Source: Tidjanibacter sp. (lineage in GTDB: Bacteria; Bacteroidota; Bacteroidia; Bacteroidales; Rikenellaceae). Taken from it: a stretch of 38,624 bases of DNA. This document shows, piece after piece, positions 2,312-24,714 of this stretch. The notes beneath the pieces are model-generated. The model saw only the letters and a list, made by a program, of their open reading frames with translations. It ran no database searches and had not been told where the DNA came from. The stretch's first letter is position 1; every line of letters starts with the position of its first letter. The stretch covers positions 1 to 38,624 of the forward strand of contig JAGBGK010000037.1 in the NCBI GenBank assembly GCA_017936005.1. The letters run 5' to 3'. Position numbers and translations under genes: made by a program.

Positions 2312-2380
2312 TGAGTGTTGTTATATTGTGTTTTGTTTAATTATCGTATACATATATTATATATGTGCATTTTTCCGCCG

Positions 2381-2411
2381 CAAAAGTAATTAAAATTGGG
2401 GTTTTCCCAAA
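2381..2411 (-). promoter_or_regulatory. Bacteroidota-type promoter for the LTD/CotH gene
   Basis: Read on the minus strand, TTTG (2408-2411) is followed after 19 bases by TACTTTTG (2381-2388). This fits the Bacteroidota housekeeping promoter pattern TTTG-N19-21-TAnnTTTG. The predicted transcript starts roughly 60 bases before the ATG at 2311. Confidence 0.65.
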
Positions 2412-2437
2412 ACAATTTAATGCGGCATTTGCTCCCA

Positions 2438-3517
2438 CTAACGACACAGTCGTTTGTAGTTGCAGTGCAGTAGGTTGTGGTCATCGTCGTAGAGGTGCAT
2501 ACCGTTGCCCTGACAGAATTTCCACACCTTGCAATCCTTACACTCTCCCTTGTGGGCCCACTCACGATTACGGAACGGCTCAAAACGCGTGTTCCACACC
2601 TCCCACAAGTTGTCCTCGTAGATGTTACCCTGGTCGAAGCCGGCACGGATGCTGGTGCAGGCACTAATGGCTCCGTCAACCTTGATGCCCGCAATGCTCA
2701 CACCTGCCATACAGCCGAAGAACCTGTCCCTAACCTCGGCCTCGTAGCCACCCAAGAAACCCTCGCAGGCGTAGTCGCACTTGATGCGTCCATCCTTGCG
2801 TGTGGCAATGATGAACTCCATAAGCCCACGATACTCTTCGGAGGTGAGTTGCAGGTTGTCGTTCTCGGCGGCCCTGCCTACGGGGAAGATGGTGAACAAT
2901 CTCCACGCCTTGCAGCCCCTCTCGATGAGCCATTCACGCAGGGCGGGCAGGGAGGCGTAGTTGTGTGGCCCCACGCAGGTGACCACGTCATACACAATAC
3001 CTTCGGTGTTAATCATAACGTCCAACGCCCTCACCGCATTGGCCCAACTTTGTGGGTGGCGACGTATGGCGTTGTGTGCCTCCTCAAAGCCATCGAGCGA
3101 AAGGGTTATGGAGCGTAGGCCCGACCTTACGAGTGAGTTCATACGCTCACGAGTGAGCAACATACCGTTGGTGACAATACCCCACGGATAGCCCCTCTTG
3201 TAGAGTTCCCTACCAACCACTTCGAGGTCCTTACGGCAGAGTGCCTCACCACCCGTAATGACAACCATCACTCGGTTGGGATTCACGTGTGGGGTGATTT
3301 GGTCCACTGCACGCAGGAAGTCCTCGGCAGGCATATCGGGCACGGTGGCACTACTGCGACAATCGCTACCGCAGTGTCCGCAGTTGAGGTTGCAACGTAG
3401 GGTACACTCCCAAAACAACTCCCTCAACTCGTGGTGCTTGGCAAGGTCGCTCTTGATGCTCGCAAAGAGGTTGAGAGCAATGCGCTTGCGTAGGCCTATC
3501 TTCTTTACCTTATTCAT
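2438..3517 (-). CDS. Radical SAM/SPASM enzyme of the rSAM/lipoprotein system (TIGR04133-like)
   Basis: This 359-residue radical SAM enzyme has the iron-sulfur motif C42-x3-C46-x2-C49 and the G-G-E motif at 89-91 used for SAM binding. The C-terminal part is a SPASM-type domain rich in Cys (247, 251, 269, 287, 326, 329, 335, 352) that should bind auxiliary clusters. SPASM enzymes usually modify peptides or proteins. Its start overlaps the 3' end of the small lipoprotein gene by 8 bases, so the two are probably translationally coupled. I recognise this layout as the Bacteroidales rSAM/lipoprotein pair (TIGR04133 with TIGR04134); the inference is that the enzyme modifies the lipoprotein, but the chemistry is not known to me. 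The family assignment is from memory of motif and context, not from a search. Confidence 0.88.
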   Translation of the reverse strand: MNKVKKIGLRKRIALNLFASIKSDLAKHHELRELFWECTLRCNLNCGHCGSDCRSSATVPDMPAEDFLRAVDQITPHVNPNRVMVVITGGEALCRKDLEVVGRELYKRGYPWGIVTNGMLLTRERMNSLVRSGLRSITLSLDGFEEAHNAIRRHPQSWANAVRALDVMINTEGIVYDVVTCVGPHNYASLPALREWLIERGCKAWRLFTIFPVGRAAENDNLQLTSEEYRGLMEFIIATRKDGRIKCDYACEGFLGGYEAEVRDRFFGCMAGVSIAGIKVDGAISACTSIRAGFDQGNIYEDNLWEVWNTRFEPFRNREWAHKGECKDCKVWKFCQGNGMHLYDDDHNLLHCNYKRLCR

Positions 3518-3959
3518 TTGGCTGTGTGGTATTTTGGGGTGTATCCTCTTCGGCGGGGGCGACCTCCGTCATCTCTATCACGCCGTCAAAGCGCATCAGC
3601 CACTCTTCGGTAGTGTGGTAGTGCCCATTGTCAAGCCCATCCACATCTTCGGCCACGAAGTATGTTTCGTGTGGCACGGTGCCAACGTGTATTGTGAAGT
3701 TACCCTCTGCGTCGGTCATCACGGGTGTGTGGCCGGCAATGGGGGAGTATGTGTACTCCGGATAGGAATATTCCCTCTCTCCCACATAGACTTTGATACC
3801 CTCAATGGGGTTGCCCAATGTGTTGGTAACTTTGCCTTTGAAATCCTTGTCCCAATATTGGTCTGGACCAGGTTCGGGCATACCATAGCAGGCAGTCAGA
3901 ATGGGTGCTGCCGAAAAACCCAACATACTCAATAGTATGTTCTTTACACTGCGCTTCAT
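3510..3959 (-). CDS. Radical SAM-associated putative lipoprotein (TIGR04134-like)
   Basis: This 149-residue protein is the likely partner of the overlapping radical SAM gene. I chose the ATG at 3959 rather than the upstream one at 3998 because it gives a standard signal peptide (M-K-R-S-V-K...) ending in L-T-A-C, with lipidated Cys24 followed by Y-G-M-P. The mature part starts with a carboxypeptidase-regulatory-like beta repeat (G-K-V-T-N-T-L-G-N-P-I-E-G-I-K-V, then T-D-A-E-G-N-F) and continues with E-D-V-D-G-x-D-N-G. These features match the lipoproteins that accompany TIGR04133 radical SAM enzymes. The tail is acidic and Thr/Gln-rich. No promoter is seen in the 41-base gap behind the pseudouridine synthase gene, so it is probably cotranscribed with it. 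Confidence 0.85.
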   Translation of the reverse strand: MKRSVKNILLSMLGFSAAPILTACYGMPEPGPDQYWDKDFKGKVTNTLGNPIEGIKVYVGEREYSYPEYTYSPIAGHTPVMTDAEGNFTIHVGTVPHETYFVAEDVDGLDNGHYHTTEEWLMRFDGVIEMTEVAPAEEDTPQNTTQPNE

Positions 3960-4000
3960 AAGATAAAGAGTAATTAGTGAAGAATTTTGAATTCTCATCC

Positions 4001-4693
4001 CTACCCTTGGCTCTCCTCAAAGAATTGCCACAGAGCATCGCCCTCGGGTACGGGGGCAACGATTTTGATGGGCTCCTTCCTTACGGGGTGGAGGAACTCC
4101 ACACTGCGAGAGTGGAGCGAAATACCACCGCCCACGTTGCTCCTCTTGGCGCCATATTTCAAGTCGCCCTTAATTGGACACCCAACCTTCGATAGTTGGC
4201 AACGTATTTGGTGATGACGACCGGTGATGAGCTCCACTTCGAGGAGTTTGTAATTTTTGCTACCACCGAGCAACTTGTATCTCAACTCAGCCCTCTTGGC
4301 ATCGCCCTTTTGGGAGTTGTAGGCCGAGGCTTTGTTGGTCTTACCATCGCGGCTGATGTAGTGCACCAATGTACCCTCCAACTCCTCGGGGGCCTCTTCG
4401 GTGATGGCCCAATAACGCTTGTCGATGTTGCGACTGCGCACCATCTCGTTGAGCCTCACAAGGGCCTTGCTGGTCTTGGCAAAGAGCACCACGCCACTCA
4501 CGGGCCTATCGATGCGGTGTACCACGCCGAGGAAAACTTCGCCCGGCTTCTCGTCCCTGATTTTGATAAACTCCTTGATATGGTCCTCCAATCCGAGGGT
4601 GCCCTCGGTGTCGGATTGCACAAGGTCGCCGGCGTGTTTGTTGACGGCCAGCAGGTGGTTGTCTTCGTAGAGTATATCTCGTTTGTTAAACAT
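4001..4693 (-). CDS. RluA/RluC-family RNA pseudouridine synthase
   Basis: This 230-residue enzyme should isomerise uridine to pseudouridine in rRNA or tRNA. The signature H-R-I-D-R-P-V-S-G contains the catalytic Asp62, and R-H-H-Q-I-R lies in the expected place towards the C-terminus. It has no N-terminal S4 RNA-binding domain and is shorter than RluC or RluD, like the single-domain RluA/TruC-type members. The exact target base cannot be read from the sequence. It starts 24 bases after cdd and precedes the lipoprotein/radical SAM pair by 41 bases, in a compact minus-strand operon. Confidence 0.9.
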   Translation of the reverse strand: MFNKRDILYEDNHLLAVNKHAGDLVQSDTEGTLGLEDHIKEFIKIRDEKPGEVFLGVVHRIDRPVSGVVLFAKTSKALVRLNEMVRSRNIDKRYWAITEEAPEELEGTLVHYISRDGKTNKASAYNSQKGDAKRAELRYKLLGGSKNYKLLEVELITGRHHQIRCQLSKVGCPIKGDLKYGAKRSNVGGGISLHSRSVEFLHPVRKEPIKIVAPVPEGDALWQFFEESQG

Positions 4694-4717
4694 CTGTTTG
4701 GGTTGTTTTTGTGTGGG

Positions 4718-5173
4718 TTAGAGTGTGAATGTAAATGGAAGTAGGTCGCTGGCTTTTTCGACCACGGTGGCACTGCCTGCGCCACTCATTATGACCTTAA
4801 AGTCGGCACCTTGACGTTTCTCCACGTCGTGCAACACCTGACGGCATTGGCCACAAGGATAGCACTCCCTATGGCTGGGCGAAGATGCAATGGCGAGTGC
4901 CACGATTTTATCCTCGGGTGTAGTTGCCTGATGGTGGTAGAGCAGGGTGCGCTCGGCACACAAACCTGCGGGATAGACTTCGCTCTCCACGTTACTACCC
5001 GTGATGATGCGTCCGCTGGCGAGCCTTGCTGCTGCTCCAACGTGGAAGTGGGAGTAGTGGGCGATAGCTTTTGAACACGCCTCCTCGGCTGCTCTGACGA
5101 GCTGCATATCCTCTGTGGGCATCTCCTCGATGGAGTCGTAGTGGAGGTATTCGAGCGAAAGAAGTTGTTTCAT
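4718..5173 (-). CDS. cdd: Cytidine deaminase
   Basis: This 151-residue cytoplasmic enzyme deaminates cytidine and deoxycytidine to the uridine forms in pyrimidine salvage. Zinc ligands and catalytic Glu are visible as C72-A-E74 and P-C107-G-Q-C110, the all-cysteine ligand set of the small tetrameric class. The substrate-binding N-V-E segment is at 61-63. The open frame extends upstream to 5332, but the extra 53 residues are low-complexity and overlap the preceding gene, so the ATG at 5173 is preferred; it gives the usual family length. Confidence 0.93.
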   Translation of the reverse strand: MKQLLSLEYLHYDSIEEMPTEDMQLVRAAEEACSKAIAHYSHFHVGAAARLASGRIITGSNVESEVYPAGLCAERTLLYHHQATTPEDKIVALAIASSPSHRECYPCGQCRQVLHDVEKRQGADFKVIMSGAGSATVVEKASDLLPFTFTL

Positions 5174-5231
5174 AGTCCTTATGGTGTTTTGTTCTACATC
5201 AAAATATGATTGGGGCAAAATGCGTGCCTCT

Positions 5232-5849
5232 CTACTCCCAGGGCCAGCACCAAGTGCGGGTGCGCACGGTGTAGGCTCCGCCATCCGCAAGGTGTGTTTT
5301 ACACTCTCCACGGGTGGTGAATATGGGGTCAACGAATTGCATCAGGTGCTCGTAGGCTCCATTGAGGGCAAATTGGCCATACTGTGGGTTGGTGCGGAAG
5401 TGGAATGTCATAACAACCACACTCCACCTGCACAGGTCGGGCCTGTTGGGGTTGCTCACTCGTGCCGAGGCAATGGGTTCTCCGGCTTTGACCTTCTCGC
5501 CCTGGGCGACCTTCACGTTGGTAATGCCGAGGTAGTCGGTGTAGATGCCATCCTCGTGGAGTATCCTCACCCTATCCCTTGCCGTTTCAATCACCACGCC
5601 ACCCCTTGCGGCATAGACCTCCGAGGGTACTTTGGTGGCGAACTTCCACGCACAAAAGTCCACAAGGTTAAGGTGCTGGGCCATACCACACGCCAATGGC
5701 GAAAGCCTTTCGGCCTGCACCACTACGCCCTTCTTCAACGGGATGCGATAGACCGCATCTGTTTCGGGGGCCTCCACCACGGTCATCTGTGCCGATAGCG
5801 CACACAGACTACACAGAGTGGCCACTATGGTAATAAAAAACCTTTTCAT
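5232..5849 (-). CDS. Secreted LytM/M23-fold protein, probably catalytically dead
   Basis: This 205-residue protein has a cleavable signal peptide (about 1-20, ending A-L-S-A-Q). Residues about 75-155 follow the M23/LytM beta-sandwich pattern: S-E-V-Y-A-A-R-G-G-V-V, then I-L-H-E-D-G-I-Y-T-D-Y-L-G, then V-K-A-G-E-P-I-A-S. M23 peptidases bind zinc through an H-x(n)-D pair and a later H-x-H pair. Here the usual ligand positions are not occupied (for example Y-T-D-Y-L-G where active enzymes have Y-x-H-L), so it is more likely a binding or regulatory paralogue than a peptidase. Its ATG overlaps the rlmD stop codon in an ATGA arrangement, so the two are translationally coupled. Identification rests on pattern, with moderate confidence. 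Confidence 0.65.
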   Translation of the reverse strand: MKRFFITIVATLCSLCALSAQMTVVEAPETDAVYRIPLKKGVVVQAERLSPLACGMAQHLNLVDFCAWKFATKVPSEVYAARGGVVIETARDRVRILHEDGIYTDYLGITNVKVAQGEKVKAGEPIASARVSNPNRPDLCRWSVVVMTFHFRTNPQYGQFALNGAYEHLMQFVDPIFTTRGECKTHLADGGAYTVRTRTWCWPWE

Positions 5850-7252
5850 CGCTTGATAAGTTTTACAACATTCTCAACGTGGTGGGTGTGTGGGAACATA
5901 TCCACCGGCTGCACCGCCACCACTTTGTACATATCGTTCATCATTGCAAGGTCGCGCGCTTGTGTGGCGGGGTTGCAACTCACATAGACAATCCTTTCGG
6001 GAGCAGCACGCAGAATGGTGGCGATTACATCCTCGTGTACACCTGCCCTCGGTGGGTCTAAGATGACCACATCGGGCCTACCGTTGGCCTCCACAAAGGC
6101 ATCGTTCATCACATCTTTCATATCGCCGGCATAGAATGTGGTGTTGCCAATGCCGTTGAGCGCCGAGTTTACTTTGGCATCCTCGATGGCCTCCTCCACA
6201 TACTCCACGCCCACGACGCTCTTGGCTTTTGAGGCTACAAAGTTGGCAATCGTACCCGTGCCGGTGTAGAGGTCATAGACAACCTCCTCGCCCGTTAGGT
6301 CGGCAAAGTTGCGAGTAACCTTGTAGAGTTCGTAGGCCTGCTCCGAGTTGGTCTGGTAGAACGACTTGGGGCCAATCTTAAATCGGAGTCCCTCCATCTG
6401 CTCGAAGATGTGGTCGCGGCCCGAGTAGAGGATAGGTTCCCTATCGCCGAGCGAGTCGTTGAGCTTGTCATTAATCATATAGACCAACGAGGTGATTTCG
6501 GGGAAGGTGGTTTTGAGGTGCTCCATCAGGGGGGTGATAAGTTCGGGCTTGTCTTGGGCAAAGACCACAATGACCATAACCTCACCTGTGGAGGCGGTGC
6601 GGATTACCACGTTACGCATCAGACCCGAGTGCTGACGGATGTCGTAGAACTCATAACCCTCGTGCTCGGTGCAGTAGCGGCGCAACTCGTTGCGAATAGC
6701 ATTCGAAGGCTCGGCTTGCAGGTGGCAGTAGTCGATGTCGAGCACCTTGTCGAACATTCCGGGGATGTGGAATCCGAGCGCGGGCCTATCGCCAATCTCC
6801 TCGCCACGAGCCACCTCCTCATAGGTTTTCCACCTCTTGGGCGCAAAGGTAAATTCGAGTTTGTTGCGATAGTGGTCTGTTTTTGCCGAGCCGAGGATGG
6901 GGCTCACTTCGGGCAGGTCGAGGTGTCCGATGCGTGTGAGTTGGTCCACAACTTGCTGCTGCTTGAAGGCGAGCTGCTCGCTGTATGGAATGCTCTGCCA
7001 CTTGCAACCGCCACACACTCCAAAGTGGCCACAAAATGGTTCCACACGCAGGGGCGAACGCTTGATGTATTCCGTAACGTAGCCCTCCATATAACGCCTG
7101 CGCTTGGTGCGAATCTGTACGTTTACAACATCGCCCGGTACGGCCATAGGCACGAATACCACAATGTCGTTCCACTTACCCATTGCGTTGCCCTCGGCAG
7201 CCAAAGAGGTTATTTCGAGTCCCTCAATTCGGGGGTGTCTGTTTCTTGCCAT
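5846..7252 (-). CDS. rlmD: 23S rRNA (uracil-5)-methyltransferase, RlmD/RumA type
   Basis: This 468-residue SAM-dependent enzyme should make 5-methyluridine in 23S rRNA (U1939-type). A TRAM RNA-binding domain occupies about residues 5-62. It is followed by the 4Fe-4S motif C74-x5-C80-x2-C83, with a fourth Cys in D-Y-C-H-L further on. The methyltransferase domain shows D-L-Y-T-G-T-G-T, L-D-P-P-R-A-G and the catalytic S-C-N-P-A-T. The frame has an ATG six codons upstream (7270); 7252 is chosen because it begins the conserved M-A-R-N-R... start of the TRAM domain. A -7-like element on the minus strand lies just upstream (7279-7286). In Bacteroidota one enzyme of this type may serve more than one uridine, which sequence alone does not settle. 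Confidence 0.9.
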   Translation of the reverse strand: MARNRHPRIEGLEITSLAAEGNAMGKWNDIVVFVPMAVPGDVVNVQIRTKRRRYMEGYVTEYIKRSPLRVEPFCGHFGVCGGCKWQSIPYSEQLAFKQQQVVDQLTRIGHLDLPEVSPILGSAKTDHYRNKLEFTFAPKRWKTYEEVARGEEIGDRPALGFHIPGMFDKVLDIDYCHLQAEPSNAIRNELRRYCTEHEGYEFYDIRQHSGLMRNVVIRTASTGEVMVIVVFAQDKPELITPLMEHLKTTFPEITSLVYMINDKLNDSLGDREPILYSGRDHIFEQMEGLRFKIGPKSFYQTNSEQAYELYKVTRNFADLTGEEVVYDLYTGTGTIANFVASKAKSVVGVEYVEEAIEDAKVNSALNGIGNTTFYAGDMKDVMNDAFVEANGRPDVVILDPPRAGVHEDVIATILRAAPERIVYVSCNPATQARDLAMMNDMYKVVAVQPVDMFPHTHHVENVVKLIKR

Positions 7253-15047: not shown

Positions 15048-17852
15048 ATGAAGAGACTTTACTCATTAATCATCTCGTTGATGGTTGTTGGTGCAGCCTT
15101 CGCACAGAACCTGACGAGTGTCAGCGGAACGATTGTTGACGAGCAGGGCCTTCCTTTGGTTGGCGCTTCGGTAACCGTTCCCGGCACAACCTACGGTGTG
15201 ACTACCGACATTAACGGTATGTTCGTATTGAAGGTTGATGCAAAGGCCAAAGACCTTGTTGTTAGCTATGTTGGCTACAAGGACAAAACCGTTGCCGTGA
15301 AGGGCAAACTCGGTAACATCAAGTTGGAGTCGGACGCTACCGCTTTGGAGGATATCATCATCACCCAGAGTGTGGCAGTAGCTCGCAAGACTCCCGTTGC
15401 TGTTTCGACTCTTACTCAGGAGACCATTTCCGAGCGTATCGGTACTATGGAGCTTCCTGAGGTGCTGAACACTACCCCCGGTGTGTATGCTCACAAACAG
15501 GGTGGTGGCTTTGGTGACTCGGAGATTCGTATGCGTGGTTTCAAACAGGAGAACGTAGCAGTTATGATTAACGGTGTGCCCATCAACGATATGGAGTGGG
15601 GTGGTACCTATTGGAGCAACTGGATGGGTCTTGCAGATGTAACCCGCAGTATGCAGACTCAGCGTGGTCTTGGTGCTTCGAAGATTTCTTCGCCTTCGGT
15701 TGGTGGTGTGATCAACATCGTAACCGCAGGTTTGGAGGCAAAGAAGGGCGGCAAAGTGTTCTACGGTACCGGTAACGACGGTATGAACAACGTTGGTTTC
15801 AGCTACTCGACCGGTATGAGCGAGGATGGCTGGGCAATGACCGTGTCGTTGTCGAAGAAGTCTGGTGACGGCTGGGTACAGGGTACCGAGTATGAGTCGT
15901 ACAACTACTTCTTCAACCTCTCGAAACGTTTGAATAACAAACACCAGTTGTCGTTCACCGCATTTGGTGCACCTCAGGAGCACTACCAGCGTAACAGCAA
16001 CGACGGTCTGACCATCGCCAACTGGCAGAGTGGTAAGATTCAGAACTATATGGGCAACGACAGCAGGTATAAATACAACCCCACCTATGGTTTCGGTAAG
16101 AACGGTGTTCGTAAGACCTCGTCCTACAACCAGTATCACAAACCCCTTATGACTCTGAACCACCAGTGGCAGATTTCGGACGACTCGAACCTCTCTACTG
16201 CTCTCTACCTCTCGCTTGGTCGTGGTAACGGTTACAGTGGTCAGGGCCGTGATGGTTTCTCCAACAGCAGCTGGTATGGTGGTAGCTATGGTACCCCCAA
16301 CAACCTGATGGTGGATACCGATGGTGATGGTATCAACGAGACCGGCACCCGCAACGCCGATGGTACCTACAACTACGCAGCAATCCAGATGATGAACGAG
16401 GCCAGCACTACCGGTTCGAAGATGGCAATGGGTAAGAGCGTTAACGACCACTTGTGGTATGGTATTATGTCGAACTACACCAAGGAGATTAACGACGAGT
16501 TGACCTTCTCGGGTGGTTTGGATGCTCGCTACTATGTTGGTACTCACACCAATGAGCTGATTGACCTCTACAATGGTGCATACTATATCGACGATAGCAG
16601 CCGTAAGAACGTGAAGGCCGAGAACAATGCAGCTGCAGCAGATCCCGCTTGGAAGATGGAGAAATTGCAGGTTGGTGATGTGGTTTACCGTGACTACGAC
16701 AGCCGCATCGGTCAGGTTGGTTTGTTCGGCCAGTTGGAGTACAGCACCGAGGAGGTTACCTCTTTCATCTCGGGTTCGTGGAGCAACCACACCTACAGCC
16801 GCTACGACCGTTTCTACTATGATGCAGAACACGCACAGAGCGACCTGTTCAACACCAATGGCTTCACTTTGAAGGCTGGTGCTAACTACAACGTTACCGA
16901 GCACAGCAACGTATTTGCTAACGTTGGTTACATCTCGCGTGCACCCTTCTTCTCGGGTGGCGTATTCCTCAACAGCACCGTAAGTAACCTCATCAACCCC
17001 GATGCAGTGAACGAGAAAGTATTCTCGGCAGAGATTGGTTATGGTTTCCGCAACGAGTGGTTGAACGTGAACGTGAATGCATACTACACCAAGTGGATGG
17101 ATAAGACTATGGCTCGTACCCAGGAGTACACCTACTATCAGGTCAACGGCGAGTCGTTTGATGCAGAGGGCAACGCTTATACCAACAAGAGCGAGGGCGC
17201 AACTGCAATCGCCAGCCGTTGGAGCGTGAATATGACCGGCGTTAACGCTGTTCACAAAGGTGTTGAGATTGACTTCACCGCTAAACCCAACGTATGGTTG
17301 GAGGTTAACGGTATGTTGTCTGTTGGTGATTGGCGCTGGGCAAGCAACGCCGATGGTTTCTTCTACGATGCTGGTACCAGCCAGCCTATGAAGGACCTCT
17401 TCGGTGGCGTTGCAAGTAGCACCGGTGCAGAGGACCACTTGAAGACTACTATCAACTTGAAGGGTATCCACGTTGGTGGTTCGCCCCAGACTACTGCTTC
17501 GTTAGGCGCAATATTCAAACCCAGCCGTACATTGCGTGTTGGTGCAACCTACAACATCTACGCTCGCCTCTTTGCAGACTACTCGTTGTCGGCTAACAGC
17601 ATCTCGGCTGGTGGTGTAACCAACGTAGTTGAGCCTTGGATGGCACCTACCGGTGGTCAGTTGGACGTGTTCGCAAGCCAGAACTTCAAGTTTGCAGGCT
17701 TGGATGCAACCCTCAGTGGTAACGTTCACAACCTCTTCAACCAGGAGTATATCACCTTTATGAAGGATGGTGGCGACGGCAAGTGGAATTCGGCTTATGG
17801 TTTCTATGCAATGGGCCGTACCTACTCGGTAAAACTCAGTGTTAAATTCTAA
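15048..17852 (+). CDS. TonB-dependent outer-membrane receptor
   Basis: This 934-residue protein has a signal peptide (about 1-19, ending A-F-A-Q), an N-terminal carboxypeptidase-regulatory-like domain (about 22-105: G-T-I-V-D-E-Q-G-L-P-L-V-G-A-S-V), a plug domain (about 120-230, with I-R-M-R-G-F, M-I-N-G-V-P-I-N-D and G-G-V-I-N-I-V) and a beta-barrel ending in aromatic K-L-S-V-K-F, a typical outer-membrane insertion signal. It imports an unknown ligand using TonB energy. It is shorter than most SusC proteins and its partner is not SusD-like. The partner lipoprotein gene begins 28 bases downstream. Codon use is markedly biased (CGT, GGT, AAC, ATC) compared with its neighbours, which suggests high expression. 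The long structured leader suggests regulation after initiation. Confidence 0.92.
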   Translation: MKRLYSLIISLMVVGAAFAQNLTSVSGTIVDEQGLPLVGASVTVPGTTYGVTTDINGMFVLKVDAKAKDLVVSYVGYKDKTVAVKGKLGNIKLESDATALEDIIITQSVAVARKTPVAVSTLTQETISERIGTMELPEVLNTTPGVYAHKQGGGFGDSEIRMRGFKQENVAVMINGVPINDMEWGGTYWSNWMGLADVTRSMQTQRGLGASKISSPSVGGVINIVTAGLEAKKGGKVFYGTGNDGMNNVGFSYSTGMSEDGWAMTVSLSKKSGDGWVQGTEYESYNYFFNLSKRLNNKHQLSFTAFGAPQEHYQRNSNDGLTIANWQSGKIQNYMGNDSRYKYNPTYGFGKNGVRKTSSYNQYHKPLMTLNHQWQISDDSNLSTALYLSLGRGNGYSGQGRDGFSNSSWYGGSYGTPNNLMVDTDGDGINETGTRNADGTYNYAAIQMMNEASTTGSKMAMGKSVNDHLWYGIMSNYTKEINDELTFSGGLDARYYVGTHTNELIDLYNGAYYIDDSSRKNVKAENNAAAADPAWKMEKLQVGDVVYRDYDSRIGQVGLFGQLEYSTEEVTSFISGSWSNHTYSRYDRFYYDAEHAQSDLFNTNGFTLKAGANYNVTEHSNVFANVGYISRAPFFSGGVFLNSTVSNLINPDAVNEKVFSAEIGYGFRNEWLNVNVNAYYTKWMDKTMARTQEYTYYQVNGESFDAEGNAYTNKSEGATAIASRWSVNMTGVNAVHKGVEIDFTAKPNVWLEVNGMLSVGDWRWASNADGFFYDAGTSQPMKDLFGGVASSTGAEDHLKTTINLKGIHVGGSPQTTASLGAIFKPSRTLRVGATYNIYARLFADYSLSANSISAGGVTNVVEPWMAPTGGQLDVFASQNFKFAGLDATLSGNVHNLFNQEYITFMKDGGDGKWNSAYGFYAMGRTYSVKLSVKF

Positions 17853-17880: not shown

Positions 17881-20343
17881 ATGAAAAAATTACTTTATAT
17901 TGCATCGATTTTTGCGGCTGCACTGACTGTGGGTTGTAACTTCAACGACCAGTTTGGTGTAGATTTCGAGGAGATGGGTAACCCTACTGATGTTAAAGCT
18001 TTGGAGTATACCCTCACCGCAGAAGACTATAATACCATTGCCAACAACTCCACCAACAAGGCACTTGCTGCCCAGAATGGTGAGGCAGATGCTTTGAAGG
18101 CATTGGCAACCAACCTCTACTTTACCGATGATATCACTGCTGCCGAGTATGCTCCTGCATTCATCGCAAGCAAGTGGTACACTGCCGACAAAGGCTCGTC
18201 GGTACAGCTGACCTATGATTATGCTACTCGCGTTCCTGCTGAGTTTGAGTATCTCGAAAGCGCAGGTTCCTACACCGTTGGCAAGGCTGACTACCAGAGC
18301 GTGTGGGGTAGCGAGGAGAACTTCGTTATGTATTTCTCGCCCGCATACAGCGCAGAGGCTAACTTGGCAAACATCTTGACTGCTGCTGTTGCTGAGCCCG
18401 AGGCTGGCGACTATGTTGTTGTTGACTACAACTTCTCGGCCACCGAGCCCGTGTTTGGCGGTGGTGCTGACGAGGTTAAACTCCCCACTTCCATCAACGA
18501 AACTTTCGAGGCTTACGAGGCAGGTGTTAATGCTTTCGCTGGTTGGCAGAATGTAGCTAAGAAGGGTACTGCTCTTTGGGGCAGCAAATACTACAATGGC
18601 GCTTACATCGAGTTGTCGGCTTACGGTAAAGGTGGTGAGGTTGACACTTGGTTGATTTCGCAGCAGATTGACCTTTCGATGTGTGAGGAGCCTAAGTTGG
18701 CATTCGACGTTTGCCTTGGCTATCCCAAAGGCACTTCCAACTTGCAGGTTTACTACTCGGAGGACTACGATGGCGAGGACGTTGAGGGCGCAACTTGGGT
18801 TGAGCTCACCAACAACTTTGCTTACAATAAGAACATTACCAAGTATGGTAAGATGTCGCCCGCAGGTGTTGCTACTTTGAAGTTTGCAGAGGGTAGCGCA
18901 AAGAAGGTGTACATCGCATTCCGCTACACCGGTGCTGACCCCGATAGTACCACAACCTTCCAGGTTGACAATATTCAGTTGGGTGATGTTGTTGACGTTG
19001 TTGCTACCGAGGTTTACAAGTTCAGCTTCCCCGATAAGTCGCTTGGCGATTGGACTGCTGTTAATGCAAAGGGTGAGGATAAAGATTGGTATGCAAGCGC
19101 ATATGCAGGTACTCCTTATGCTTCTATCTCTGCTCACGGTGGTGCTGGCGAGCAGGAGGACTGGCTCATCTCGCCCGAGATTGAGATTCCCGCTACTACC
19201 GATGGCGGTACAAACACTGTTTCGCAGCTCTCGTTCGTTCTCAAATATCGCTACCACAATGGCGACTGCTTGAACGTTTACCTTTCGGAGGATTTTGCAG
19301 GTGATGTTGCTACCGCAACTTGGACCGAGATTAGCGACTATTTCGCTCTCGAGCTCAACGATGCAAACAATGATAACTATGCTTTGGCTGGTTGCGCTGC
19401 TTTGAACTCGTATGCAGGTAAGAAGATTCGCGTAGCCTTCAAGTACACCGGTGCTGTGGGTGGTGTAACAACTACTGTTCAGCTTACTGATGTGACTGTT
19501 CAGACCTTGGCTCACGCTGCTGCTCCTGCTGTTCTCAAAGTACAGGCTGCTGCTACCGAGAAATTGCAGGCTCTGTATAAATATGATGGTAAGGTTTGGA
19601 AAGCAGCAGACGTTCTGTTGATTTCTGCCGAGGATTACAAGACTATGGGCCAGACTTATAGCAACCTCAGCGGCGACTACAACGCAATTCTCACCAAGTT
19701 CCTTGCAATGCAGTTCCCCTTCGCTGCAAAAGATGCAGTTAAGACCGTTCTGTTCAAGTATTATAGCAACTCGGCTACCGTTTGGAAGGCTGCACAGTAC
19801 AGCTTCGACGGTGTAGAGTGGAAGTCGACCGCAACTGCAAGCAAGACCGACCAGTTCAAGTGTGTTGAGGCAGGTTGGAGCTACGACCCCAGTATCGAGC
19901 TTACCCTGCTTGGCAACAAGAACGCAGATGCTCAGCCCTATTATCAGGCTATCGTTGACTATGTGGCTGACACCTTCGGTTCCGGTTACTACCAGACCGG
20001 TTACACCAACGCTGAGCGTTACTATGGTGCAAGTGCCTACTACACCAACTTCGACCTCCGCCTCGACAAATGGCGTGGCGACTGCCCCGCAGGTGCAGAG
20101 GCCTACGGCTCGATGAGCGACGAGGAGTTGCAGGCTTTGCAGATGAAACGCTTGGAGGAGGCATTCATTCCTATGTTGAAGAAGTTCTGGCCTAACATCG
20201 CTCCCGTAGAGGGTATTGAGGTTACTGCACGCATTAACTTCATTCTTTACGATGGCGTTAACCACGACTACACCATCCTCTACGACGTAACCGGCGTGGG
20301 TGAGTTCACCTACCGTGAGGGCTCGCTCCAAGAGGTTAAATAA
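17881..20343 (+). CDS. Surface lipoprotein with two choice-of-anchor-J domains
   Basis: This 820-residue lipoprotein (lipobox T-V-G-C19) is the likely extracellular partner of the preceding TonB-dependent receptor. Two related beta-jelly-roll modules are visible. The first (about 203-368) has D-T-W-L-I-S, V-Y-Y-S-E-D-Y and I-A-F-R-Y-T-G. The second (about 375-545) has E-D-W-L-I-S-P, V-Y-L-S-E-D-F and V-A-F-K-Y-T-G. This is the cleaved-adhesin/choice-of-anchor-J pattern often found on Bacteroidota cell surfaces. The C-terminal 270 residues are Tyr/Trp/Lys-rich (Y-K-Y-D-G-K-V-W-K, Y-S-F-D-G-V-E-W-K) and may bind ligand. It does not look like SusD. Codon bias is as strong as in the receptor gene. 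A perfect terminator follows. Confidence 0.82.
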   Translation: MKKLLYIASIFAAALTVGCNFNDQFGVDFEEMGNPTDVKALEYTLTAEDYNTIANNSTNKALAAQNGEADALKALATNLYFTDDITAAEYAPAFIASKWYTADKGSSVQLTYDYATRVPAEFEYLESAGSYTVGKADYQSVWGSEENFVMYFSPAYSAEANLANILTAAVAEPEAGDYVVVDYNFSATEPVFGGGADEVKLPTSINETFEAYEAGVNAFAGWQNVAKKGTALWGSKYYNGAYIELSAYGKGGEVDTWLISQQIDLSMCEEPKLAFDVCLGYPKGTSNLQVYYSEDYDGEDVEGATWVELTNNFAYNKNITKYGKMSPAGVATLKFAEGSAKKVYIAFRYTGADPDSTTTFQVDNIQLGDVVDVVATEVYKFSFPDKSLGDWTAVNAKGEDKDWYASAYAGTPYASISAHGGAGEQEDWLISPEIEIPATTDGGTNTVSQLSFVLKYRYHNGDCLNVYLSEDFAGDVATATWTEISDYFALELNDANNDNYALAGCAALNSYAGKKIRVAFKYTGAVGGVTTTVQLTDVTVQTLAHAAAPAVLKVQAAATEKLQALYKYDGKVWKAADVLLISAEDYKTMGQTYSNLSGDYNAILTKFLAMQFPFAAKDAVKTVLFKYYSNSATVWKAAQYSFDGVEWKSTATASKTDQFKCVEAGWSYDPSIELTLLGNKNADAQPYYQAIVDYVADTFGSGYYQTGYTNAERYYGASAYYTNFDLRLDKWRGDCPAGAEAYGSMSDEELQALQMKRLEEAFIPMLKKFWPNIAPVEGIEVTARINFILYDGVNHDYTILYDVTGVGEFTYREGSLQEVK

Positions 20344-20364: not shown

Positions 20365-20404
20365 AAAAGTAGCGTGGTTCCGAGTGAACCACGCTACTTT
20401 TTTG
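20365..20404. terminator. Bidirectional terminator between convergent genes
   Basis: A perfect 15-bp stem (20366-20380 with 20386-20400, loop CGAGT) is flanked by an A-run on the left and a T-run on the right, so it can end transcription from both the lipoprotein gene and the opposing WG-repeat gene. Confidence 0.9.
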
Positions 20405-20467: not shown

Positions 20468-21934
20468 TTAGATTCTGCCCTGTGCAAGAAGTTGTTCCTG
20501 TACCGAGCCGATGCGATGGAAGGTGGTGTCGATGTGGTAGGAGTTGCCGTTGTAGCACACCAGAGCAAAGCCACGGTTGAAAGACCCCGCACGCTCATAG
20601 ATGAAGTCCACACATTTCTCGCCATTTGTTGCATAGTAGCCAAATTTGTTGCCAAAGCGTGCTACAATGTAGCCCTCGCTCGGAGTGCCGAAGCCGTGGC
20701 AAGGGTAGTAGGATATTTGGTGTCCACGGCGATTGTAGATGTGCCACCATTTGCCATCCTCTGTGGCTGTGATGATGTTCTCCTCGCCGTGCCAAATGAT
20801 GTCCACCCAACGGTCTTCCATAACCCACTCGCCTGCGGTGTTGATGACTCCATAGCCACTCTCGGTGCGCACCACCGCGAGTCCTTCGTAGAAATCTGTG
20901 GCATAAAGCAGTCGCTTGCCGGTGTGGATAATCTCGCCACGATGGTTGGCATAGCCCCACGAGGAGCCTTTGTGGAAACGAATGTAGAGGTCGCTTGGCG
21001 GGGCTACGAAGTCGCAGGTGGCCAAGTCGATGCAGTCTGTAATAATCTCCTGGTCGTCGGGCGTATGGTATTGCACGGAGGGTAACTTGGCGTATTGCGT
21101 GAGGGCGTTGTATAGAAACGGCAACGGGCGGAAAGGCTCGCTTGCGAGTCTTTGGATGGCCCTTCGGTAGCTATCCACATCCCTTGTTTCCACATACAGT
21201 GAGGCGGCTTCGGCCAGACCGTCGGCACCGTGATATTGTGCGGCGGCGGTTATGTATTCCGTTAGTTTGTCGCTCGGAATATGTTGTAGGTACTTGCCGG
21301 TGAGCAGGGCGTGCGACTCTCTGCTACACGCTGCAATAAACAGCATTATGGCGCATTGCAACAATGATTGACAATCGCTACGTTCTGTTTTGAGGAACGA
21401 TATGGGGTAGTCGGCAATACGCAGTGATCCATCCGAGGTGAAGCCTAAATTGTGGGCCGAAAGGGCTCCGTGGGTGATGACTCCATCGCAAAATAGGTCG
21501 ATGTGTTGCGCTATGCTGTGTAGCGCATTGCGTAGGAGTTGACACCTCTGCTTTGAGACGTTTCTACGAATGAAGGTGTTGAGTGGCAAAAATCGCTCTT
21601 GAATGATGATGCTACACCCACATTCGACGCCATCACTCTCCGCAATGTGCATTGCGTTGGGGATTAGGTTGGCCGAGGATAGTATCTCCATCGAGTGGGT
21701 TTGAGGAATACGAGAGGCTATGGTGTCGCAGTGGTAGGCATACATATTTGGCATAACGGTCAGCCATACCTCTTGTCCTTTTTGTATAGCCTCCACTACC
21801 ACTCCGTGTGAGGTGTGCCAAAAGTGAGGCTTATCACAATGTTCCGTGGGGATTATGATGCCGGATAGCTCACCTTGCCAGAGCGAAGTGTAGTACGATA
21901 GGGTTGCGAGTAAGGAGCTGGTTGTGGGGTACAT
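20468..21934 (-). CDS. Pseudokinase fused to WG repeats, third gene of the kinase/VWA unit
   Basis: This 488-residue cytoplasmic protein has a kinase-like N-terminal half and C-terminal WG repeats. Residues 155-175 read H-G-A-L then N162 and D175, with the same spacing as H155-G-D-L, N162 and D175 in the kinase encoded two genes upstream. Here the catalytic Asp is Ala157, the expected ATP-binding Lys is missing (V-W-L-T-V where the partner has H-A-L-K), and only about 12 residues separate D175 from the next helix, so the activation segment is gone. Residues about 320-475 form five repeats starting W-G-Y-A, Y-G-V-I, W-W-H-I, F-G-Y-Y and S-Y-H-I, each with a G-E or R-G turn. WG repeats probably form a beta-propeller or solenoid for protein binding. 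It starts 15 bases after the VWA gene. Function unknown. Confidence 0.78.
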   Translation of the reverse strand: MYPTTSSLLATLSYYTSLWQGELSGIIIPTEHCDKPHFWHTSHGVVVEAIQKGQEVWLTVMPNMYAYHCDTIASRIPQTHSMEILSSANLIPNAMHIAESDGVECGCSIIIQERFLPLNTFIRRNVSKQRCQLLRNALHSIAQHIDLFCDGVITHGALSAHNLGFTSDGSLRIADYPISFLKTERSDCQSLLQCAIMLFIAACSRESHALLTGKYLQHIPSDKLTEYITAAAQYHGADGLAEAASLYVETRDVDSYRRAIQRLASEPFRPLPFLYNALTQYAKLPSVQYHTPDDQEIITDCIDLATCDFVAPPSDLYIRFHKGSSWGYANHRGEIIHTGKRLLYATDFYEGLAVVRTESGYGVINTAGEWVMEDRWVDIIWHGEENIITATEDGKWWHIYNRRGHQISYYPCHGFGTPSEGYIVARFGNKFGYYATNGEKCVDFIYERAGSFNRGFALVCYNGNSYHIDTTFHRIGSVQEQLLAQGRI

Positions 21935-21949
21935 AGGGCTGTGTCTACG

Positions 21950-22801
21950 TTAAAGCATACGATGTAGGCTCAACGAGCCGATATACATTGCGCCAATCAA
22001 CTCTTCGCACGATGTGTTGTAACACACTGCCCGATATTCTTGCGGAGTGAACTGCCCTTTGAGCGATGCAATGGCCTCGGAGTAGAGTGGCGGTAGTTTA
22101 CTCGATAGGTCGTGGAGCAACTTTGCGTGCCTTATGTTCGGCAGCGGCTCACCCGAAGCGGGCCATTTGAGAGTGTAACTGTTGTCGGCGTTGTTGGAAG
22201 ATAGGTGGATGTTGAAGAATAGCAGATTGCCATCTTCGGTGGCCACCATCTTCAACCTTTCGGCCAGGTGGACGAGTTGTTCCTCGGTTGCATCAGTAGC
22301 CTCGCCATCGGAGATGTTGATGACTATTGGCGGGAAACTTTGTGGGTGCTTTCGACACCACGCATTACACATCGTGCGTGCCACACGCAGAGCATTCCCC
22401 ATAGGTGTACGTCCTTTGGCAACAGGCTCCACCCACTGCCTCTGGGAAAAGAAAAAGTCGATGTGTTCTCCTGTGGGTAACTTGCGTACAATATAGTGTT
22501 TGGCTATGGGAACATACATCGAGTTGAACTCCGTGATGCTGCGAAAACGCGTGCCAAACAGCGACTTGGCATCATTGCCTCCATAGCCAATGACGGCGAT
22601 GTCGAAGTAGTCGCCCACGCCTATTTCTCGGTGCGCACGGTCTATGATCTCTTCGATGAAAGTGTTGGCAATTGTTGCCACAGCTTGGGCCTTTGTGGTG
22701 CTTTTGCCGTTGAAGAAACACTCTTCGTCCATAGAGCCGGACTGGTCTATGAGGAGCATTATTGCTCCTTTGTGCTGACGGGTTATATTGGCTTTATACA
22801 T
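21950..22801 (-). CDS. VWA-domain protein with intact MIDAS
   Basis: This 283-residue protein is nearly all a von Willebrand factor A domain with no signal peptide or membrane segment, so it is probably cytoplasmic. The metal-ion-dependent adhesion site is complete: D19-Q-S21-G-S23, T132 in R-T-P-M-G-N-A-L, and D165 in I-S-D-G-E-A-T-D. The style resembles TerY-like VWA proteins, which pair with a kinase and a PP2C phosphatase in tellurite/stress loci. Its ATG overlaps the 3' end of the kinase gene by 8 bases, so they are coupled, but no PP2C gene is next to it. It may be a phosphorylation target or a scaffold; that is inference. Confidence 0.88.
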   Translation of the reverse strand: MYKANITRQHKGAIMLLIDQSGSMDEECFFNGKSTTKAQAVATIANTFIEEIIDRAHREIGVGDYFDIAVIGYGGNDAKSLFGTRFRSITEFNSMYVPIAKHYIVRKLPTGEHIDFFFSQRQWVEPVAKGRTPMGNALRVARTMCNAWCRKHPQSFPPIVINISDGEATDATEEQLVHLAERLKMVATEDGNLLFFNIHLSSNNADNSYTLKWPASGEPLPNIRHAKLLHDLSSKLPPLYSEAIASLKGQFTPQEYRAVCYNTSCEELIGAMYIGSLSLHRML

Positions 22802-23660
22802 TATTGAGAATCTCTTTTAGGTTAGGTATCTTGTAGGTTGTGGGGTCTGCGAGCGCACGACACAACTCCGAGAGTGCCTTGTTGTGTGCCAAAACCTCCA
22901 CAACTTGTTGGTATGGCGGTTGCTTGTCGAGCGCTTCGGAAGCGGTGAAATGCAACCCTTTGATGATGATATCTGGTGAGTCGCTAAGCGTAAGGAAGTG
23001 TAGGTTTGCAAGTATCAACGCAATGGGGTAGTCGTCGATGTGCTCATCTCTATTGGTCCCACGCATAGGGTGTGTAAAATTGGGAGTCCCAATCTCCTTG
23101 CAGGGAGGAATTGTTGGTGCCCATAGCGCGTCAATATCAACGAGTTGCATTTTGCCTTCAGGTGTTACCATGACATTTTCTGTTTTGAGGTCGCCGTGTC
23201 GCCACGGAGAGTTTAGGATGTCGAGCGATAGGGCTTTGAACTCCTCGGCTAAACGAATTAGGGCGTCGGTATCTCGGTTGTATACACAACGCTTGATTTC
23301 CGTATCGAGCGAGTACCCATCCACCCAAGAATAGGTGCACACGTCTGCCCACTCAACATCCTTAATGGTGGGTACGAGTAGTTCTTGTGGGTAAAATGTC
23401 GGCGATGGAAGGCGGTCAGATGGATGCGTTTTGACGTAGGCACACAAAGCCTCTCCACGTTCAAAAGGTTGCTTGTAGCATTTTAGAGCGTGTTCTTTGC
23501 CGTTTATTAGGACTTTGAGCAGTACTCCATTTCTCCCGGTATGGTGTTTTGGTCGTCTGTAAATGTCGTATGTGGGGGCCAAATTTTTGATATTCTTGAC
23601 CACTTTATCGGAAGAGGTTATGGCACTGATTATGCAAACGCCTGCGAGTGGGTGTAACAT
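22794..23660 (-). CDS. Serine/threonine protein kinase-like protein, first gene of the VWA unit
   Basis: This 288-residue protein has a protein-kinase fold with the key residues present: probable ATP-anchoring Lys60 (H-A-L-K-C-Y), H155-G-D157-L-K-x-x-N162 as catalytic loop, D175 in L-V-D-I-D replacing DFG, a G-T-P-N-F-T-H-P segment after the activation loop, and the helix-F D-D-Y-P at 209-212. A classical glycine-rich loop is not evident. There is no transmembrane or sensor domain. The start at 23660 is preferred over 23750 because a promoter at 23687-23717 would place the transcript start between them. Family type: atypical kinases linked to VWA proteins. Catalytic activity is likely but untested. 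Confidence 0.82.
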   Translation of the reverse strand: MLHPLAGVCIISAITSSDKVVKNIKNLAPTYDIYRRPKHHTGRNGVLLKVLINGKEHALKCYKQPFERGEALCAYVKTHPSDRLPSPTFYPQELLVPTIKDVEWADVCTYSWVDGYSLDTEIKRCVYNRDTDALIRLAEEFKALSLDILNSPWRHGDLKTENVMVTPEGKMQLVDIDALWAPTIPPCKEIGTPNFTHPMRGTNRDEHIDDYPIALILANLHFLTLSDSPDIIIKGLHFTASEALDKQPPYQQVVEVLAHNKALSELCRALADPTTYKIPNLKEILNNV

Positions 23661-23717: not shown

Positions 23718-23759
23718 GCCAAATTTTGAATTTGCAACATAGTTGCACAATTTTATTCG

Positions 23760-23806: not shown

Positions 23807-24661
23807 ATGAAAACAGAGTACATCCCTTTTGTAGAGGAACTTATTGAACTAGCAATTAAGGAGGATATTGGCGATGGCGACCACACCTCCCTTTCGACCA
23901 TTCCTGCCGATGCTCGTGGTAGGATGAAACTGTTGGTGAAACAAGATGGTATCATTGCCGGTATTGAGGTTGCTGTGGCTGTGTTCCGCAGGCTGGACGA
24001 GAGCATTGAGATTGATTTGAAAGTGGCCGATGGTGACCAAGTGAAGGTGGGCGACGTGGCGTTCTATGTGGAGGGCCGCATTCAGACTCTCTTGCAGGCC
24101 GAGCGTATTGTGCTCAACATTATGCAGCGTATGAGTGGCGTAGCAACCCAGACGGCTGTCTATGCTAAGGCTTTGGAGGGTACGCAGTGCAAGGTGCTTG
24201 ATACCCGTAAGACTACCCCCGGTATGAGGGTGCTGGATAAGATGGCAGTGAAGATTGGTGGTGGCGAGAACCACCGCATTGGTCTGTTTGATATGGTGCT
24301 TTTGAAAGATAACCACATCGACTTTGCGGGCGGTATTGTGCCTGCCATCAAGAGTGTTAAGGAGTATCTTAAAGCGAAGGGTAAGAATATTCCCATCGAG
24401 TGCGAGGTGCGCTCGTTGGAGGACATCGACTTGGTCTTTGAGGCGGGTGGTGTTGACCGCATTATGTTCGACAACTTCACTCCCAAGATGACTCGTAAGG
24501 CTGTGGAGAAGGTGGCAGGTAGGTGTAGCACCGAGTCCTCGGGCGGCATCACGCTCGAAACAATGAGAGAGTATGCCGAGGCAGGTGTGGACTACATCTC
24601 CGTTGGTGCACTCACCCACCAGATTAAGAGCCTCGATTTGAGCTTGAAAGCTTGTAAGTAG
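23807..24661 (+). CDS. nadC: Quinolinate phosphoribosyltransferase (nicotinate-nucleotide pyrophosphorylase)
   Basis: This 284-residue enzyme converts quinolinate and PRPP to nicotinate mononucleotide in de novo NAD synthesis. Recognisable segments are E-D-I-G-D-G-D-H-T-S near the start, Q-R-M-S-G-V-A-T, D-T-R-K-T-T-P-G, H-R-I-G-L-F-D-M-V-L-L-K-D-N-H and the C-terminal E-S-S-G-G-I. The frame opens earlier (23708) but M-K-T-E-Y at 23807 gives the standard family start and lies downstream of the -7 element. nadA and nadB are not in the window. Confidence 0.96.
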   Translation: MKTEYIPFVEELIELAIKEDIGDGDHTSLSTIPADARGRMKLLVKQDGIIAGIEVAVAVFRRLDESIEIDLKVADGDQVKVGDVAFYVEGRIQTLLQAERIVLNIMQRMSGVATQTAVYAKALEGTQCKVLDTRKTTPGMRVLDKMAVKIGGGENHRIGLFDMVLLKDNHIDFAGGIVPAIKSVKEYLKAKGKNIPIECEVRSLEDIDLVFEAGGVDRIMFDNFTPKMTRKAVEKVAGRCSTESSGGITLETMREYAEAGVDYISVGALTHQIKSLDLSLKACK

Positions 24662-24714
24662 AATACCTTGATTTAGGTATCGTACCACAAAATAAAAAAT
24701 ACACAATTTTGGGT

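Follow-up and report, generated by a model that had tools for sequence, protein, structure and literature searches.

A TerY-like VWA gene set of the Rikenellaceae with a predicted pseudokinase where TerY-P sets carry a phosphatase

The TerY-P triad has been described as a VWA protein, a PP2C phosphatase and a protein kinase that are hypothesised to form a metal-sensing phosphorylation switch (PMC11090510; PMC7699616). We analyzed a related set of three genes in a window of 38,624 nucleotides from Tidjanibacter sp. (Rikenellaceae; contig JAGBGK010000037.1). The genes, here called A, B and C, follow one another in that order on the minus strand. Gene A (22794-23660, with its ATG at 23660) encodes a Ser/Thr-type protein kinase of 288 amino acids with complete catalytic residues and without WG repeats. 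Gene B (21950-22801), which matches the TerY model of PADLOC, encodes a TerY-like VWA protein of 283 amino acids with a complete metal-ion-dependent adhesion site (MIDAS), and gene C (20468-21934) encodes a pseudokinase domain (approximately residues 1-290) followed by five degenerate WG repeats (approximately residues 316-488). A and B overlap by 8 bases and B and C are separated by 15; these are the coordinates and gaps of the single operon proposed in an earlier sequence-only reading of the window, and they were confirmed. The set shares with the TerY-P triad a TerY-family VWA protein with a MIDAS, a kinase best matched by STK_OB (the TerY-P kinase model of PADLOC) and three short adjacent genes on one strand (in 27 of the 35 genomes that carry it). 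It differs in that no PP2C was found, a pseudokinase stands third, and WG repeats or nothing take the place of the oligonucleotide/oligosaccharide-binding (OB) fold or zinc ribbon; moreover, the Rikenellaceae set is widespread and vertical, whereas TerY-P is patchy. It is a derived, domesticated-looking TerY-P set that fails on the PP2C and on the OB fold or zinc ribbon, and so should not be classed as a TerY-P triad. We hold it somewhat more probable than otherwise that A, B and C form a cytoplasmic phospho-signalling complex derived from a TerY-P set, with a dead kinase in the phosphatase's place.

The product of gene A carries K60, D157 (within an HGD motif), N162 and D175, which bears out the complete catalytic loop claimed for it previously. 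The catalytic Asp is retained in 48 of 49 A rows (Asn in L063). The Lys is retained in 26/27 rows of a first table (Arg in L039) and in 16/22 rows of a second table, with Arg in the other 6. The A profile matches solved protein kinases, and STK_OB was matched by the window protein (1.9e-12) and by all 25 A relatives scanned (best 1.5e-38). Judged from these matches, A is a kinase with complete catalytic residues that is closest to the TerY-P kinase STK_OB. The match of A proteins to STK_OB ends at model position 234-265 of 562; it also ends at 250 for the canonical kinase of L005 (a locus from Saprospiraceae that has TerY and PP2C beside the kinase), so this model alone cannot decide on the OB fold or zinc ribbon. 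In place of a C-terminal OB fold or zinc ribbon, A carries WG repeats or nothing. Many A relatives end in WG repeats, and the window protein ends soon after the kinase domain. The repeats are optional: they are lacking from the window A and from both A and C of three genomes (G006, G008 and G012). The alignment of A used 25 of 27 rows (L051 and L058 were left out).

Gene B matched the PADLOC TerY model at 1e-49 over residues 2-276. In 37 sequences, every residue of its MIDAS (D19-x-S21-x-S23, T132 and D165) is either invariant or conserved to 90% or more, which upholds the earlier description of a VWA protein with a complete MIDAS; the alignment used 37 of 40 rows, without L044, L051 and L064. 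The VWA profile of B matched no solved structure. According to PMC7159879, extended peptides are bound at the MIDAS of VWA proteins.

Gene C is a relative of A that has lost the catalytic residues. The two family profiles align over 436 columns (probability 100, E 2.9e-64), and the C profile matches solved protein kinases (best E 8.4e-06); its top rows are WD-40 repeat proteins, matched via weak repeats only. In the window protein, Thr replaces the Lys and Ala the catalytic Asp, and the Asn and the Asp aligned to the DFG position are kept. The catalytic Asp is retained in none of 53 C rows from Rikenellaceae (36 rows in the first table, 17 in the second); these include three with a gap at that position in a shortened domain (L063, L065 and L071) and one that the kinase model does not recognize (L069). 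The Lys survives in 5 of the 36 rows of the first table. In the A-C profile alignment, C lacks the stretch where A should carry what we take to be the activation segment. The five WG repeats lie at residues 326, 361, 396, 431 and 465, with a spacing of 35, 35, 35 and 34. Only one scores well alone, so that "five" rests on the spacing. With this proviso, the asserted catalytically dead kinase-like domain with five WG repeats stands. Pfam WG_beta_rep matched C at 2.7e-11 and little else in Pfam did; no PADLOC model matched it, and NCBIfam and PHROGs gave weak or partial matches only for the window proteins. Judged from its residues, C is a pseudokinase, that is, a kinase homologue with the catalytic residues lost. 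A decayed PP2C was ruled out as its origin, because the C profile matches kinases and A. The alignment of C used 29 of 37 rows; L063-L066, L071, L006 and L007 are short or split, and L005, a canonical kinase, was left out.

A kinase-domain tree of 48 hand-chosen rows (19 of 35 A, 20 C and 9 outgroup kinases) placed all 20 C proteins in one clade (100/99) and set A and C together apart from the outgroup kinases (88/89). Without C, the A proteins do not form a clade. On this tree C is a paralogue of A and a single clade.

The sequence-only reading held that PP2C is absent, and a family-wide search supports this. A TerY-type PP2C profile, built from five outgroup-locus proteins, found none in 36 Rikenellaceae genomes, and it did find two genomes outside its training set (G376 at 3.3e-54 and G209 at 1.3e-14), which serve as independent positive controls. 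PF13672 PP2C proteins occur in 4/36 of these genomes, on contigs other than that of B. The PP2C of outgroup locus L072 was not recognized by Pfam at E 0.01, and PF13672 alone is therefore too blind. The PADLOC PP2C model matched 0/60 genomes, but no control genome matched either. The reading had also seen no adjacent TerD partner; this agrees with the lack of any TerD match (PF02342) in 60 genomes, a model that matched 2 of 14 control genomes.

Outgroup sets suggest the steps that preceded the replacement of phosphatase by pseudokinase. In a sample of 395 genomes of the class, TerY-type VWA genes were found in the window genome and 8 others, none of the latter in Rikenellaceae. A PP2C gene lies beside TerY in 6 of the 8 outgroup loci, five recognized by similarity to the L005 PP2C and one (L077) by profile. 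On the short contig of L078, neither kinase nor PP2C was recognized. Two of the PP2C-bearing sets, L072 and L073, have a kinase with WG repeats fused to it (nine repeats in L072), and such a TerY-PP2C-kinase-WG set is a likely ancestral form. The simplest account of the sequences would be that a kinase-WG gene was duplicated once in the Rikenellaceae ancestor, that one copy lost catalysis and came to occupy the place of the PP2C, and that the PP2C was lost from the set. As separate observations on the outgroups, L079 (6705-10828) holds a TerY-type VWA gene, a 450-amino-acid gene without Pfam match and then two tandem kinases, both with the catalytic residues kept, which makes it a further TerY set with two kinases. 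Upstream of TerY-PP2C sets lie a DUF6939 gene (L074 5771-6400) and a gene whose product matches DnaJ weakly, narrowly missing the Pfam cut-off (L072 6197-6952).

Within the family the set is widespread. At E 1e-10, B was found in 35 of 36 Rikenellaceae genomes and in none of 24 genomes from other families of Bacteroidales. The kinase part of A occurs in the same 35 genomes; outside the family, the matches listed for A all lie at model position 279 or higher, in the WG part. C was present in 35/35 sets, adjoining B in 32 genomes and A in the other 3. None of the three genes was found in the one genome without B (G014, 99% complete). Rather than being rarely adjacent in relatives, A, B and C lie together and in order in 27 of the 35 genomes (including G032, in which approximately 1.1 kb separates A from B, and G018, where the order is read over the break between two contigs). 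The other 8 sets are split. In five (G023, G029, G031, G033 and G035) B and C are together and A is elsewhere; in G035, it is 1.76 Mb away on a single 3.15-Mb contig. In the remaining three (G006, G008 and G012) A and C overlap, and B has a separate location. A wider set of 268 Rikenellaceae genomes gave B in 242 and A (E 1e-30) in 229, with one B match per genome except in G018 (split over two contigs), G630, G669 and G670. Across 16 regions taken from 14 of these genomes, the catalytic Asp is present in 13 A rows and missing from 14 C rows. Among 110 good genomes (at least 90% complete, at most 5% contaminated), B occurs in 104 and A in 99. The six without B (G014, G463, G474, G589, G592 and G625) also have no A match, a coincidence whose chance we calculate as approximately 2 in ten million, ignoring kinship. 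A conserved fourth partner gene was ruled out: the flanks vary, and the commonest flanking gene family is found at only 11 of 39 loci.

Trees of A, B and RpoB agree, with correlations of 0.69 to 0.81 that none of 2000 permutations reached. This comparison used 25 of the 35 genomes; 8 had no usable RpoB (in G020 a short fragment), and fragments in G003 and G026 were dropped. The ratio of nonsynonymous to synonymous substitution rates (dN/dS) was 0.09-0.35 for A, B and C over four species pairs, with some dS values near saturation; by this measure all three genes are under purifying selection. Relative to RpoB, A has diverged 7.2, B 6.2 and C 11.2 times as much (19 genomes). The congruent trees rule out a recently moved defence island, and we take the set to be a vertically inherited Rikenellaceae trait, as judged from those trees.

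The same data bear on a role in anti-phage defence, in which a triad of TerY-P kind senses infection, the kinase triggers a response and the pseudokinase is a decoy or sensor that pressure from phages drives to evolve fast. The closest PADLOC matches, TerY and STK_OB, are defence models, the divergence relative to RpoB is high, and PMC11090510 reports TerY-P-like sets with an OB-fold kinase as stand-alone phage defence. Set against this, the genes are widespread in Rikenellaceae (35/36 genomes; B in 242/268) and mostly present as one match per genome, unlike the patchy 8/394 elsewhere in the class, their trees are congruent with RpoB, dN/dS is below 1 and even the commonest flanking family is present at only 11/39 loci. 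The widespread, vertical pattern weakens a defence role, which we regard as unlikely.

Covariation beyond RpoB was measured as a partial correlation over 19 of the 25 genomes. Those dropped were G010 (where C runs off the contig), G012, G027, G029 and G035 (C short or unlinked) and G033 (C not recognized by the kinase model). A and B covary (0.54, reached in 0/2000 permutations), as do B and C (0.42, 4/2000). We infer that B is a hub with binding contacts to both A and C, because B covaries with each of them beyond RpoB and A does not covary with C. The split sets, which stay complete, also count for one complex. The pseudokinase would then be an allosteric or scaffolding partner held by B, with a docking arm where WG repeats are present. 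Assembly, instead of a paired phosphatase, would determine the output, and with the phosphatase gone the switch would lack its reset arm.

The sequence-only reading had instead suggested that the pseudokinase regulates the active kinase, with Mg-dependent assembly through the VWA protein and recruitment of a target by the WG repeats. On a model of this kind C would directly inhibit or activate A, as a heterodimer of paralogues to which B is only a metal-dependent accessory. A and C are indeed paralogues along their length, and they overlap as neighbors without B in G006, G008 and G012. That idea found no support in the single covariation test (A-C 0.09, vs 0.54 for A-B and 0.42 for B-C), which points rather to B as hub, and B and C remain neighbors in five genomes where A is found at another place. 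We therefore consider direct regulation of A by C improbable.

Several observations weigh against the complex proposed here. A-C covariation beyond RpoB was not seen (0.09, with 579/2000 permutations as high). The covariation permutations also break the tie to RpoB, which makes the test lenient, and it had no control gene. In the kinase tree, bootstrap support had yet to stabilize and two of the long C branches come together. The kinase part of C is shortened in G027, G029 and G035, C is split in two in G028 and G030, and B of G028 has an in-frame stop. In five of the 104 good genomes that carry B (G482, G517, G521, G573 and G621), no A was detected at E 1e-30; there, B and C may work without A, or A may be too diverged to see. 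An A gene with no B was seen in at least seven incomplete genomes (G499, G522, G525, G616, G635, G646 and G647).

The shortened and broken copies, together with the divergence of C (the highest of the three, at 11.2 times that of RpoB), would also fit a decaying, functionless duplicate carried along in the operon. C is nevertheless present in 35/35 sets, also beside A where B has moved, and its dN/dS is 0.11-0.35 (the 0.11 pair has near-saturated dS), so we give decay very little credence. At the level of sequence, the homology of the proteins, their kept and lost active sites, the single C clade, the failure to find such a PP2C, the congruent trees and purifying selection are established. On these the proposal of a B-centered signalling complex is built. 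The phospho-signalling module of the sequence-only reading stands as to its kinase, VWA protein and pseudokinase-WG protein and the missing PP2C; it needs changing in that the set derives from TerY-P and the WG repeats are optional.

The operon is preceded by a promoter-like site of the Bacteroidetes type (TTG-N20-TATTTTTG, 23717-23687, minus strand), located 27 to 57 bases before the start codon (ATG) of A. Matches to this loose pattern number 7 in the window, vs a mean of 1.14 in shuffles, and 4 of 26 other loci (G003, G010, G013 and G017) have a like site close to where A starts; a sigma-70 scan of the window gave no excess (7 vs 5.0). The mechanical open reading frame of A starts earlier, at a TTG at 23750, upstream of the likely promoter. 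A strong, symmetrical hairpin with T runs on both strands (about 20365-20402, no strand) lies between C and a convergent gene at 17881-20343. The surrounding 71-base stretch folds at -27.7 kcal/mol (z -5.67); a terminator scan of the window did not report it. The hairpin is likely a shared terminator of C and the convergent gene. Since the promoter-like site precedes A and the hairpin follows C, the three genes most likely constitute the whole transcription unit. They were ruled out as chance reading frames by family-wide conservation, because the set recurs through the Rikenellaceae, and by dN/dS below 1. The convergent gene encodes 820 amino acids with a DUF5017 match (1e-18) and a lipoprotein-like N-terminus and shows no sign of a link to the triad. 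Long antisense frames cover likely genes in the window (17890-20331, 15066-17471 and 23849-24706, all minus strand), and mechanical lists of reading frames mislead in this genome.

Some loci carry further genes. The large genus g233 includes genomes in which a codirectional DUF4954/DUF6819 gene separates A from B (L136 3978-5705 and L149 3882-5615); no such gene separates them in L139 and L146. A protein of 1292 amino acids that consists largely of WG repeats is encoded at G000:C42:9621-13499 (L089 1622-5500, minus strand), with 23 stretches of Pfam WG_beta_rep (E 1.2e-229), and other genomes of the genus contain open frames of 1200-1400 amino acids that bear WG repeats, frequently two in a genome. 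These large proteins are possible partners of the WG arms of the triad. In L091 of one relative (1979-6445, G005:C4), a PP2C gene lies four genes upstream of a different WG-repeat protein (458 amino acids).

The significance of the set lies in a natural replacement, in gut bacteria, of a phosphatase by a pseudokinase within a known three-part switch. It opens two questions to experiment: which components the VWA protein keeps together in TerY-P sets, and whether domestication can make a core regulator of a defence-type switch. Among the matches listed in a search of open-licence papers, none was on a TerY/kinase/pseudokinase set. The outgroup sets of L072 and L073 share a kinase fused to WG repeats and a TerY-type VWA protein; they differ in that PP2C is present and no pseudokinase was seen, and in L073 the kinase is on the other strand. 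The Ter stress system is set apart by its TerD-family protein, the PF02342 family sought in the 60 genomes. VWA-centered ternary iSTAND systems, as described in PMC7159879, likewise combine a VWA protein with a catalytically inactive member of an enzyme family; their core is a MoxR ATPase, whereas a kinase forms the core here.

A further comparison is offered by animal cells. The LKB1-STRAD-MO25 trimer consists of a kinase, a pseudokinase and a scaffold, and MO25 is not a VWA protein. There is no common descent beyond the kinase fold, and any likeness would be one of logic, with a live kinase, a pseudokinase and a scaffold in both. By this analogy we suggest, tentatively and with clearly less confidence than we attach to the complex itself, that a defence-type switch of VWA protein, phosphatase and kinase, patchy in its distribution, may have become in the Rikenellaceae a lasting regulatory complex of the cell that evolves fast. 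The phosphatase would have been exchanged for a catalytically dead kinase copy, which would give a bacterial trimer of kinase, pseudokinase and scaffold in which assembly, and not a phosphorylation-dephosphorylation cycle, carries the signal.

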